A DNA stretch of 64,000 bases. Source: Sulfurihydrogenibium subterraneum DSM 15120 (lineage in GTDB: Bacteria; Aquificota; Aquificia; Aquificales; Hydrogenothermaceae). Of this stretch, positions 33,893-37,357 are shown piece by piece; position 1 is the first letter of the stretch, and every line of letters begins with the position of its first letter. Under the pieces are notes generated by a model. It saw only the letters and a program-made list of their open reading frames with translations, did not search any database and was not told the origin of the DNA. Location of the stretch: positions 1-64,000 of the forward strand of contig NZ_JHUV01000013.1 in NCBI RefSeq assembly GCF_000619805.1. Reading direction: 5' to 3'. A program made the translations under genes and the position numbers.

Positions 33893-33921
33893 TTGATTTT
33901 CGGTTTTTTTTCGGTTATAAT
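33893..33921 (+). promoter_or_regulatory. Promoter of the lexA-polB operon with direct repeats in the spacer
   Basis: TTGATT (33893-33898), 17 bases, TATAAT (33916-33921). Within it TTTTCGGTT occurs twice, at 33897-33905 and 33908-33916, spaced 11 bases apart, that is one DNA turn. The second copy touches the -10. It is a good candidate for a LexA operator in direct-repeat form. Confidence 0.6.
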
Positions 33922-33958: not shown

Positions 33959-34558
33959 ATGCGTAAAAAACAGCAAGAAATACTTAATTTTATTGAAAGC
34001 TTTTATAAAAGAAACAGAAGATTTCCAACATTAAAAGAAATAGCATCACATTTTAATATATCTGCTGTATCTACAGTACACGAGCATTTGGAAAAATTAG
34101 TTGAAGAGGGGTATTTAAAAAAAGTAAAAAGAGGAATTTATGAATTATCTTATAATGTATGGTCTTTTCCTATAATAGGATATATAGCTGCGGGTAATCC
34201 AATAGAAGCTGTTAATGATTTATTTGAAATTATAGATATATCTAATCTATTAGATTCTCATAACTGTTATGCTCTTAAAGTTAAAGGAAACTCAATGATT
34301 GATGAGCATATTTTAAACGGAGACATAATCATTGTAGAAAATAGACAAACTGCAATAAACGGAGAAATAGCGGTTGTTTTAATAGATAATCAGGAAACGA
34401 CCTTAAAAAAGGTATATTTTGAAGATAAAATGGTAAAGCTTGTCTCTGCTAATCCAAATTTTGAACCAATGTATTTTGAATCTGAGAGGGTAAGAATACA
34501 GGGAGTTGTAAGAGGAATAATAAGGGATTATAAATCACAATTAAAAAGGAAGGGTTAA
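33959..34558 (+). CDS. lexA: LexA-family SOS repressor
   Basis: A 199-residue LexA. The winged-helix DNA-binding domain (about 1-62) opens RKKQQEILNFIESFYKRNRR and has TLKEIASHFNISAVSTVHEHLEKL. The S24 latent-protease domain follows. Cleavage site Ala78-Gly79 (GYIAAGNP), nucleophile Ser112 (GNSMID) and Lys150 (ETTLKKV) are all present, so self-cleavage stimulated by RecA is expected. The ATG at 33959 gives the family N-terminus; a longer frame would start inside the promoter. It is the first gene of a four-gene operon, and its stop is one base before the next start. Whether it is the only LexA of the organism is unknown. Confidence 0.92.
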   Translation: MRKKQQEILNFIESFYKRNRRFPTLKEIASHFNISAVSTVHEHLEKLVEEGYLKKVKRGIYELSYNVWSFPIIGYIAAGNPIEAVNDLFEIIDISNLLDSHNCYALKVKGNSMIDEHILNGDIIIVENRQTAINGEIAVVLIDNQETTLKKVYFEDKMVKLVSANPNFEPMYFESERVRIQGVVRGIIRDYKSQLKRKG

Positions 34559-34559
34559 A

Positions 34560-34997
34560 TTGATAGGAAAATCTGAAAATAATTGGAAAAAAATAACAGC
34601 TGATAAAGCAACATATCACGAATTAATTTTTAATTTAGCGTCTAACGGGTTAAAAGTTTGTTTTATAGAATGTAGTCATAAGTTTGACCCTTATCTAATA
34701 ACACAAATAGCAAGAAAACATAAAAAAGATCATCTAAAAATACTTGAAAGAATCTTTGTAATTAGGGTATTTAACATACACCATTTAAAAACTGCAATAG
34801 AGAAAGCAAAAATTTTTGATTATATCTTTATTTCAGGGATAGAAAGGCTAATAGATAATAGCTGCGTATCTCTAAAAGAAAAAGAGTATTTTAAGGAATA
34901 CCTTTTAGAACAGATAAAGAGTATAGATAAAAAAATATTTTTTATTACAAACAAAATATTAACTATTAAAAAAAGCGGAGGTATTAAAAATGGGTAG
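34560..34997 (+). CDS. RadA/RecA-like protein without Walker A (inactivated ATPase)
   Basis: A 145-residue protein. The stretch NGLKVCFIECSHKFDPYLITQIAR through RIFVIRVFNIHHLKTAI aligns by eye with the Rad51/RadA core (VxYIDTEGxFxPxRLxxIA ... ARAxNxxHL). The place of the P-loop reads ITADKATYH, with no GxxxxGKT, and the protein ends early, so it is probably not an ATPase. An inactivated RecA-like partner is known beside archaeal PolB2. The start is TTG, one base after the lexA stop. It overlaps the next gene by 8 bases. ImuA or SulA-like proteins are alternatives, but the Rad51-like pattern fits better. Confidence 0.65.
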   Translation: MIGKSENNWKKITADKATYHELIFNLASNGLKVCFIECSHKFDPYLITQIARKHKKDHLKILERIFVIRVFNIHHLKTAIEKAKIFDYIFISGIERLIDNSCVSLKEKEYFKEYLLEQIKSIDKKIFFITNKILTIKKSGGIKNG

Positions 34998-35241
34998 ATT
35001 AATGCCATCTCCTACTGGAATTGTTTTAAAAGAAAAAGAAAGCTGGTCAGAATTTAGAAAAGCTTTGAGAAAAGATGATAGAGAAATTTTTGATGAACTA
35101 TTTTCATACGCAAAATTTCATGCTACTGCAATTGGAGAATCAAATAAATTTTATCCCATGGAAGCTATATTACTTTCAATGCTTATAGAAATGAAGAAAG
35201 AAATAAACAATCTAAAAAGCCAGCTAAAAAATGGAACATAA
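34990..35241 (+). CDS. Small helical protein of the LexA-PolB cassette
   Basis: An 83-residue, mostly helical, charged protein with no Cys and no signal. It opens MGRLMPSPTG, has FRKALRKDDREIFDELFSYAKFH, and ends in an amphipathic helix LSMLIEMKKEINNLKSQL that could mediate dimer or partner contacts. I do not recognise a named family; its place between the RadA-like protein and the polymerase suggests an accessory subunit. GGAGG at 34977-34981 precedes the ATG. It overlaps both neighbours (8 and 11 bases). Confidence 0.7.
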   Translation: MGRLMPSPTGIVLKEKESWSEFRKALRKDDREIFDELFSYAKFHATAIGESNKFYPMEAILLSMLIEMKKEINNLKSQLKNGT

Positions 35242-37357
35242 AAATGTTTATCTTTTAGATATATATTCTAATCCTGAAGGAATTACATTATGGTTTTTAT
35301 CAGAAAAAGGAGAAAAATTTAAAATAAAGAAAAGTTTTAGTCCTTACTTTTTCCTCTTAAAAACAAAAGAGAGCAAAAAGATAGTAAAACATCTTTATGA
35401 TGCGTTTAAAAACAATATAAAAATAACTATAGAAATAAAAGAAGATTTAATTAATGGAGAATTAGAAGTTTTTAAAATAGTATCTAAAAATCCATTAATT
35501 CATAACAAATTAATTTTATTTTTAAAATCAACACCATTAATTGAAGAAGGTATATTTTACAATCTTCAACTCACTCCAGAACAGCTGTTTATGTTTGAAA
35601 AAGATATATTTCCATTTTTTAAATTTAAAGTAATTGGAAATAAATGGATAAGAAATGACAATGTTAGTAAAATAAATTATGAAATACCTTATCTTAAGAA
35701 AATTTATCTAAAATTTGAAATAGATAGAGAAAATCCAAAATATATAAAAACACTTCCTCCAATTTCAGTTAAGATTGAAGGAGAAAATGAAATAATAGTG
35801 GATAATGATGTTGAATACATAAACAATCTTATTGAAAAATTTGATCCAGATATCGTCATAACAGAATACGGAGATAGTATTATCCTACCAAAACTGCTTG
35901 AAAATAATGTAAGGAGTTTAAACATTGATAAAATATCATATAGATCAAAAGGTGTAAGTTTTGAATCTTATGGAAAAGTTTATTACAGGGATCCTTCTGT
36001 GTATTTAAGGGGAAGAATTCACATAGATAAGAAAAACTCTTTCTTTTACAATGAAGTAGGTTTTGAAGGGATAATAGAACTATCAAGAATATCGTCTCTT
36101 CCGGTTCAAAAGTTAGCAAGATCAGCAATCGGAACACCGATTACATCCATGGAAATGAAAAAGGCATTTCAACAAGGATATTTAATTCCATATAGAAAAA
36201 GCATTTCAGAAGATACTAAAACCGCAAAAGAACTTATGAAAATAGACAAAGGTGGTTTAACATACAGACCAATAAAAGGAATTCATGAAAACGTGGCTGA
36301 ACTTGATTTTTTCTCAATGTATCCATCAATAATACTCAATTACAACTTATCTTATGAAACAATAAATTGTAAACACTCAGAATGTAAAACAAGACTTCCT
36401 TATGTAAATTACAGAGTATGTACTAAAAAATTAGGAATAGTCCCACAAGTACTAAGATTTTTACTACTTAGAAGAAAAAAATTGAAACAACTAAAAGAAG
36501 AAAAAAGACAAATTGCATTAAAATGGCTTCTTGTAGTAAGCTTTGGATACCTCGGATACAAAAATGCAATATTCGGAAGGATTGAATCCCACGAAGCAAC
36601 AACAGCAATAGGAAGGATGATGCTATTATCTGCTAAAGAAGTGGCTGAAAGAGAAGGTTATAAATTTCTTCATGGTTTAACAGATTCTATATGGGTCTAT
36701 AAAGAAAATGTAAATCAGCTGGATTATAAGAATTTAGAAGAAAAGATAAACAAAGTTATAAACAAAAAGTTTAAAGGAATAGCTAAGGAAAATATAGGAT
36801 TTAAAATCAACCTTGAAGGAATATACGACTGGATAGTGTTTTTATCCTCAAAATTAGATGATATATCTGTTCCAAATAGATACTATGGAAAATTTAAAAA
36901 TGGAGAGTTAAAAATTAGAGGAATAGAGATAAGAAGACATGATACACCGGATTTTATAAAAGATTATCAAGAAGAAGTTTTAAATATTTTAAGAACTGCT
37001 AAAAACAAAAAAGAACTCCTAGATAAGAGGCAGTTAATAGATCAGATAACAGAGAAATATAGAAATATGTTAGAAAATGGTGATATAAAAATTGAAAAAT
37101 TAGTTGTAGTAAAAAGAAATTCTAAGGAAGTATTTGAGTATCAAAAAAGAACGGACATATCGGAAACGGTAGGTACATTGGTAAAAGAAGGAATAAAAGT
37201 AAATCCAGGGGAAAAAATAAACATAATCTATGTTAAAGAATATAAAGGAATGCCATACGAAATCTACATAAAGTATCCAAAATTTATAGACACTGAAAAG
37301 TATATTAAAATGTTATTTGAAAGTAAAAAAGCTTTTAATTTTGAAAATTTAGAATAG
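35231..37357 (+). CDS. Family B DNA polymerase, PolB2 (Dpo2)-like, exonuclease-deficient
   Basis: A 708-residue family B polymerase. Palm motif A is DFFSMYPS (359-366), motif B is KWLLVVSFGYLGYKNA (431-446) with NS changed to VS, and motif C is HGLTDS (481-486): the first Asp of the usual DTD is Leu483, while Asp485 remains. The thumb shows LKIRGIEIRRHDTPDF. The exonuclease region looks inactive: Exo I reads FEID (162-165), Exo II YGDSIILP lacks its Asp, and Exo III YNEVG has Gly for Asp. This is the profile of archaeal PolB2, a divergent translesion-type polymerase. As last gene of the lexA operon it is likely SOS-induced. Catalysis remains plausible because the two essential metal ligands, D359 and D485, are kept. 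Confidence 0.85.
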   Translation: MEHKNVYLLDIYSNPEGITLWFLSEKGEKFKIKKSFSPYFFLLKTKESKKIVKHLYDAFKNNIKITIEIKEDLINGELEVFKIVSKNPLIHNKLILFLKSTPLIEEGIFYNLQLTPEQLFMFEKDIFPFFKFKVIGNKWIRNDNVSKINYEIPYLKKIYLKFEIDRENPKYIKTLPPISVKIEGENEIIVDNDVEYINNLIEKFDPDIVITEYGDSIILPKLLENNVRSLNIDKISYRSKGVSFESYGKVYYRDPSVYLRGRIHIDKKNSFFYNEVGFEGIIELSRISSLPVQKLARSAIGTPITSMEMKKAFQQGYLIPYRKSISEDTKTAKELMKIDKGGLTYRPIKGIHENVAELDFFSMYPSIILNYNLSYETINCKHSECKTRLPYVNYRVCTKKLGIVPQVLRFLLLRRKKLKQLKEEKRQIALKWLLVVSFGYLGYKNAIFGRIESHEATTAIGRMMLLSAKEVAEREGYKFLHGLTDSIWVYKENVNQLDYKNLEEKINKVINKKFKGIAKENIGFKINLEGIYDWIVFLSSKLDDISVPNRYYGKFKNGELKIRGIEIRRHDTPDFIKDYQEEVLNILRTAKNKKELLDKRQLIDQITEKYRNMLENGDIKIEKLVVVKRNSKEVFEYQKRTDISETVGTLVKEGIKVNPGEKINIIYVKEYKGMPYEIYIKYPKFIDTEKYIKMLFESKKAFNFENLE

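Follow-up and report, generated by a model that had tools for sequence, protein, structure and literature searches.

A likely PolB2 mutasome operon under its own LexA in Sulfurihydrogenibium subterraneum

Introduction

What is a PolB2-family DNA polymerase doing in a predicted lexA-headed operon of a hot-spring-type bacterium, and does that LexA control anything else? These questions are raised by a locus in the first 64,000 nucleotides of contig NZ_JHUV01000013.1 of Sulfurihydrogenibium subterraneum DSM 15120 (phylum Aquificota), hereafter the window. At 33959-37357 on the forward strand, four open reading frames (ORFs), lexA, iRadA, PPB2 and polB2, follow one another with a 1-base gap, an 8-base overlap and an 11-base overlap. 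We propose that this locus is a PolB2 mutasome operon with a translesion role, placed under a private LexA whose self-repression would be relieved via RecA. Judged from sequence, we consider this interpretation probable.

The four-gene arrangement itself is known. In 2014, lexA was described in the same predicted operon as PolB2, an inactivated RadA and arCOG07300 in some bacteria, with Leptospirillum ferriphilum LFML04_0990-0993 as the type example (PMC4104785). In 2025, iRadA and PPB2 were named, iRadA-PPB2-PolB2 was reported as the only order in bacteria, lexA was found to be enriched beside bacterial polB2, one archaea-to-bacteria transfer was inferred and a heteropentameric "PolB2 mutasome" was modelled (PMC11791011). 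A preliminary description of this DNA, made from the sequence alone, had presented the arrangement as a candidate unusual module; its central idea was already published. The regulon predicted here is unusually minimal, and no description of a private LexA with a single operator in a setting lacking Y-family polymerases was found in a limited literature search.

Results and Discussion

LexA and PolB2 in the phylum

The distribution of LexA and PolB2 was examined in 136 genomes of the phylum, with 88 good genomes and 30 genera also considered. PolB2 was present in 10 of the 136 genomes and LexA above its cut-off in 8, all of them within the 10. The two PolB2 genomes without a LexA call are incomplete assemblies with polB2 at a contig edge. 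This co-occurrence is significant over all genomes (Fisher p 2e-11), among the good genomes (5/5, p 3e-8) and among the genera (4/4, p 4e-5), by a statistic that ignores relatedness. Matches to the LexA model below the cut-off occurred in 22 genomes and were rejected as further LexA proteins; nearly all covered the S24 peptidase part only, and most of those read appeared by eye to be XRE/CI-like repressors. No Y-family polymerase (PF00817) was found in any of the 136 genomes, with positive results for 11 of 14 controls. A RecA-model match was present in every genome, above the cut-off in 129. These counts indicate that LexA is found in the phylum only with the PolB2 operon and that no candidate bypass polymerase other than PolB2 is recognised there.

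A conserved promoter with a candidate LexA operator

A sigma-70 promoter is predicted upstream of lexA (Table 1). It is the best site between 33800 and 37500, with 10/12 matches, although such scans are weak by themselves. Its conservation is more telling. In the aligned lexA upstream regions of eight loci, TTGATTTTCGGTTTTTTTTCGG is followed by TATAAT or TATATT; the first 22 bases of this region are identical in seven, and the eighth has 2 changes in the 20-base core. The flanking intergenic bases and those farther upstream diverge around it. The conserved promoter and the direct repeat within its spacer are linked to lexA in 8/8 LexA loci of the phylum. The repeat TTCGG-N6-TTCGG shares its period of 11 with the alphaproteobacterial GTTC-N7-GTTC, and in one relative (G022) the site reads as this published LexA motif. 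We regard the repeat as a candidate LexA operator. Together with the co-occurrence, its conservation supports the predicted control of the operon by LexA that the preliminary description had suggested.

We also searched for this site elsewhere; the genome-wide counts rest on pattern searches. The 20-base operator form, at 0-1 mismatch, occurs in seven genomes, once in each and always upstream of lexA, and is absent at that quality from all LexA-less genomes. In the genome of the window (G000), the half-site pair has one exact occurrence, its four 1-mismatch variants all fall within ORFs or an rRNA-like stretch, and no further operator of like quality was found by the pattern search. No box-like site (≤4 mismatches) was found at recA in any of the 8 recA loci checked. 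Since the operator is single in the genome and LexA occurs in the phylum only with PolB2, this LexA appears to be private. The simplest and most likely reading is that it has no target besides its own operon, and the arrangement resembles an SOS response reduced to one switch. It is rather unlikely, in our judgement, that LexA is instead a general SOS repressor and the PolB2 operon one of several targets with operators too degenerate for a pattern search. Most LexA regulons do comprise several genes, weak sites escape consensus scans, and the genome contains near-matches within 3 mismatches; against these stand the lack of a comparable second match in G000, the recA loci without a box, and the rest of the phylum, where LexA is absent and ordinary repair genes would run without it.

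One relative has an altered upstream region. In G100 (L100:825-2510), the TnpB-like ORF of an IS200/IS605-type insertion sequence (IS), named by eye, lies between the promoter/operator and lexA, which places the operator 1.8 kb upstream of the gene. This insertion probably uncouples or alters lexA expression in that strain.

The products of the four genes

The LexA protein scored 144.4 bits against the TIGR00498 equivalog model (cut-off 110.95) and matched solved LexA structures end to end (Protein Data Bank (PDB), E 9e-29). Its Ala78-Gly79 cleavage site and Ser112/Lys150 dyad are invariant with E. coli LexA in the alignment. iRadA on its own resembled RadA weakly (NF003301, E 6.6e-6), while a profile of 12 iRadA sequences matched RadA in the PDB with an E of 2e-10. 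An AlphaFold2 model, built from an alignment of two sequences only, had a predicted local distance difference test score of 81.7, and its best Foldseek matches were Dmc1/Rad51/RadA (E 2e-7). No Walker A motif (GxxxxGK[ST]) was found in iRadA. PPB2 had no family match in Pfam or NCBIfam. It shares 33-39% identity with the product of the small gene that separates iRadA from polB2 on haloarchaeal plasmids, and its size and N-terminal arm fit the family expectation of about 90 amino acids with an MGRT arm; the N-terminus reads MGRL here and MGKT, MGNT or MGRT in relatives.

PolB2 matched PF00136 (E 1e-31) and NF004416 (E 1e-114). It was aligned with its relatives, with PolB2 proteins from phages and haloarchaea, and with E. 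coli Pol II. Compared with Pol II, the ExoI Asp is replaced by Lys and the ExoII Asp by Ile, and the ExoIII stretch is missing from the alignment. The protein keeps Asp359 of motif A and Asp485 (codon 36683-36685), the second Asp of motif C. Motif C reads LTD485S, with Leu in place of the first Asp. The D(K/R) motif is Asp339-Lys340; D-K/R-G-G is present in all aligned PolB2, compared with SPGG in Pol II. Identity is 45-62% to phylum relatives, about 37-39% to phage PolB2 (36.7% over 96%), 27-29% to haloarchaeal PolB2 and 18% to E. coli Pol II. A scan of genome contigs turned up nothing but a Heimdallarchaeon polymerase, whose DTDS motif is intact.

These results bear out most of what the preliminary description had read from the locus: the four genes and their spacings, the lexA gene, a RadA-like protein without a P-loop and a 708-amino-acid family B polymerase with an inactive exonuclease. 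The RadA match of the 145-amino-acid protein, which it had left to be checked, is weak for the single sequence and clear as a profile and by fold. The suggested affinity to archaeal PolB2 gains support from the homology of iRadA, PPB2 and PolB2 to archaeal operons with the same order. As to a grouping with phage or Pol II enzymes, which it had raised as a doubt, Pol II is remote; phage proteins are among the closest, but they too are PolB2. The PolB2 family tree was small and carried no PolB1/PolB3 panel. Finally, the term "error-prone polymerase" proved too simple, since purified Sulfolobus PolB2 inserts nucleotides with high fidelity but extends mismatched ends efficiently (PMC8764526).

The altered motif C bears on whether the complex is a polymerase at all. 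It might instead be a catalytically poor structural or regulatory factor at stalled forks or in replication restart. The first motif-C Asp is lost in every aligned PolB2, an inactive repair or replication-regulation complex was proposed in PMC4104785 before PolB2 activity had been shown, and an association with Orc1/Cdc6 exists in haloarchaea. However, the motif A Asp and the second motif-C Asp are invariant in the aligned PolB2, and Sulfolobus PolB2, which carries the same substitution, shows extender activity (PMC8764526) and, as cited in PMC11791011, is required for targeted mutagenesis. We consider such a structural or regulatory role quite improbable.

A model for the operon

We propose the following sequence of events for the locus, read as a PolB2 mutasome operon with a private LexA. 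In an undamaged cell, LexA would bind the direct repeat between the -35 and -10 elements and repress its own operon. Upon damage, RecA filaments on single-stranded DNA would induce self-cleavage of LexA at Ala78-Gly79, repression would lift, and a single mRNA would yield LexA, iRadA, PPB2 and PolB2. In complex with iRadA and a trimer of PPB2, PolB2 would then extend primer ends past lesions and mismatches. Because PolB2 lacks proofreading, these would not be removed, and survival would come at a mutational cost. Once the RecA filaments vanish, fresh LexA would close the operon. The model is anchored in the gene identities, the catalytic residues, the conservation of promoter and operator, the LexA-PolB2 co-occurrence, the presence of RecA and the absence of Y-family polymerases. 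Mismatch extension, damage-inducible PolB2 with targeted mutagenesis in Sulfolobus, and the geometry of the complex are taken from published relatives. LexA binding, RecA-driven cleavage, cotranscription, complex formation and the translesion role are the steps that we infer.

The locus can be placed among known systems. It shares four genes in one predicted operon with Leptospirillum, compared here by its published description; it differs in belonging to another phylum, in having a conserved operator that has been mapped, in the occurrence of LexA only alongside PolB2 and in the phylum-wide absence of Y-family polymerases. With the PolB2-iRadA-PPB2(3) heteropentamer (PMC11791011) it has in common the gene order, the non-DxD motif C, the D(K/R) motif, the inactivated RadA fold and the small helical PPB2, whereas the PPB2 arm is MGRL rather than MGRT, no convincing beta-clamp motif, which a fraction of members have, was found, and the complex here is a predicted one. 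Sulfolobus Dpo2/PolB2 (PMC8764526, PMC7390963) belongs to the same family, has lost its exonuclease and is likewise linked to damage, but Sulfolobus has the Y-family Dpo4 and no LexA-headed operon has been described there. The closest regulatory analogue is lexA2-imuA-imuB-imuC of Pseudomonas putida, which is under the direct control of its own LexA2 (PMC3901139). There, too, LexA heads and directly controls one damage-mutagenesis operon, although the polymerase is unrelated (DnaE2/ImuC with the Y-family-like ImuB) and a second LexA regulon is present. A parallel drawn in PMC11791011 is that with UmuD'2C-RecA (Pol V), similar in outline as an SOS-induced multi-subunit polymerase with a recombinase-fold partner; Pol V is of another polymerase family, and here there is no UmuD-type subunit and iRadA is a dedicated inactive paralogue.

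Several points weigh against the model. Motif C lacks its first Asp, a loss shared with most PolB2, active Sulfolobus ones included. A search for a beta-clamp motif found none in iRadA, and the sole match in PolB2, QLFMF at residue 118, is internal, away from the C-terminal region in which the search for such motifs was made. The pattern search would miss LexA sites elsewhere that are weaker or differently shaped. Known PolB2 acts by extension, and an inserter of the Y family was not found here, so insertion opposite lesions would be left unaccounted for. Lastly, the patchy occurrence of the operon, the IS between promoter and lexA in G100 and the broken polB2 of G102 show that the operon is dispensable.

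A broader version of the proposal can be offered only tentatively, and we put it at somewhat short of even. The SOS response of the phylum may have been reduced to one operon and one operator, with LexA kept only for PolB2; without a Y-family polymerase, a mismatch extender would carry out bypass without the usual inserter, and in some relatives it would be gated again by programmed slippage or frameshifting at an A9 run (below). If so, the locus would be a natural minimal SOS case with one repressor, one promoter and one polymerase complex. A bacterium with PolB2 and no Y-family polymerase lets one ask whether PolB2, iRadA and PPB2 can both insert and extend, a question clouded in Sulfolobus by Dpo4, and, with the operator conserved, the regulon claim lends itself to an easy test.

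An A9 run in the polB2 gene of relatives

In three relatives, G080, G087 and G090, the reading frame of polB2 shifts at one shared A9 run (AAA AAA AAG; Table 1). In G084 the run is A10 and the gene is in frame; no A9-type run was found in polB2 of the window. The ratio of nonsynonymous to synonymous substitution rates (dN/dS) was obtained for G087 and G090, the only pair close enough to compare, and was about 0.14 before the shift and 0.11 after it. No start codon was found near the junction in the downstream frame. Since purifying selection acts on both sides and there is no nearby start, the two halves appear to form a single translation product. A-AAA-AAG is the frameshift heptamer of E. 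coli dnaX. Runs of this kind are prone to slippage, as in Thermus dnaX (PMC1088944). The data suggest a programmed event, either slippage during transcription or a ribosomal frameshift. It is less likely that the three relatives share a recent frameshift or that their assemblies contain a homopolymer sequencing error.

Table 1. Features of the operon in the window and frameshifted polB2 genes of relatives
Feature	Position	Strand	Description
Predicted sigma-70 promoter	33893-33921	+	-35 TTGATT 33893-33898, 17-base spacer, -10 TATAAT 33916-33921
Candidate LexA operator	33899-33914	+	Direct repeat TTCGG-N6-TTCGG, period 11, within promoter spacer
lexA	33959-34558	+	199 aa (amino acids); winged-helix DNA-binding domain and S24 autopeptidase; TIGR00498, PF01726, PF00717
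iRadA	34560-34997	+	145 aa; TTG start; 1-base gap after lexA; RadA/Rad51 fold without N-terminal domain or P-loop
PPB2 (arCOG07300)	34990-35241	+	83 aa; small helical protein; 8-base overlap with iRadA
polB2	35231-37357	+	708 aa; family-B DNA polymerase, inactive exonuclease domain; 11-base overlap with PPB2
Frameshifted polB2, G080	L020:5337-7510		A-AAA-AAG
Frameshifted polB2, G087	L021:5441-7599		A-AAA-AAG
Frameshifted polB2, G090	L024:2-1821		A-AAA-AAG

Gene order, divergence and origin

polB2 is present as a single copy in a genome of 1.61 Mb that is 99.95% complete. A survey of gene order in phylum relatives, which the preliminary description had proposed, showed the order iRadA-PPB2-PolB2 there as in the window and the four-gene block kept: it is intact and in order in G100, G022, G080, G087 and G090, and extends across contig breaks in G084 and G102. 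The block is unlikely to be due to chance since it recurs in relatives within several genomic settings, which differ from the window in G100/G102/G103, g8, G080 and G022; this supports the operon structure originally suggested. In G102 (L022, L023), polB2 is split over two contig ends and has further frame damage, and lexA, iRadA and PPB2 remain; this genome has probably lost the polymerase.

LexA and PolB2 diverge much faster than RecA. Their divergences track each other (r 0.94), compared with 0.71 and 0.70, respectively, against RecA. An exchange of the cassette between genera was suggested by the LexA identity of 57% between G000 and G100, no closer than to other genera, versus 93% for RecA. 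The tree test does not support it; in the LexA+PolB2 tree the genus stays together (90/95), and in the approximately unbiased (AU) test a placement with the other genus was not rejected (p 0.135). As the LexA+PolB2 and RecA trees are not in conflict, fast evolution suffices to explain the low LexA identity. With regard to the horizontal acquisition envisaged earlier, an archaea-to-bacteria transfer has been inferred (PMC11791011), while a recent gain by this lineage is unsupported, the LexA+PolB2 tree being free of conflict with RecA.

That fast divergence, together with the broken polB2 of G102 and the IS separating promoter and lexA in G100, could also be taken as signs of a decaying, no longer functional operon. 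We find this hardly credible. The ORFs, overlaps, catalytic residues and promoter are all intact in the window, and the G087/G090 comparison gives low dN/dS on both sides of the frameshift.

The closest relatives found outside the phylum are Leptospira LE1-type phages with iRadA, PPB2 and PolB2, followed by haloarchaeal plasmids. The iRadA-PPB2-PolB2 module was seen at L088:4180-7436, L089:3868-6920 and L105:4853-7914, in these phages and in two contigs of IMG/VR. The search of viral contigs gave no match with a single protein and, with an alignment, two identical stretches carrying the module. The annotated PPB2 genes of L088 and L089 look start-truncated compared with L105. Phages carrying the PolB2 module are not mentioned in PMC11791011. 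The GC (guanine plus cytosine) content of the operon is 26.7%, versus 32.0% for the window, which may reflect foreign origin or fast AT-biased evolution. A module derived from a phage or mobile element, serving that element rather than host damage tolerance, would account for the phage copies, the plasmid location of the haloarchaeal ones, the low GC and the changing neighbourhoods. We give this little credence, given that no phage or mobility genes are evident beside the operon in the window, that the phage copies are also PolB2 with no lexA head in the stretches read, and that the LexA+PolB2 tree does not conflict with RecA.

No defence system was assigned to the operon by PADLOC; LexA gave only weak helix-turn-helix matches, and a PolB2 match to a model labelled as a homing endonuclease was set aside as a cross-match. 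The neighbours of the operon in the window are an M48-type peptidase gene, named by eye, and guaA. In G080 (L020:8921-12508), the operon adjoins oppositely transcribed genes that, judged by eye, look like dnaN (sliding clamp) and gyrB.

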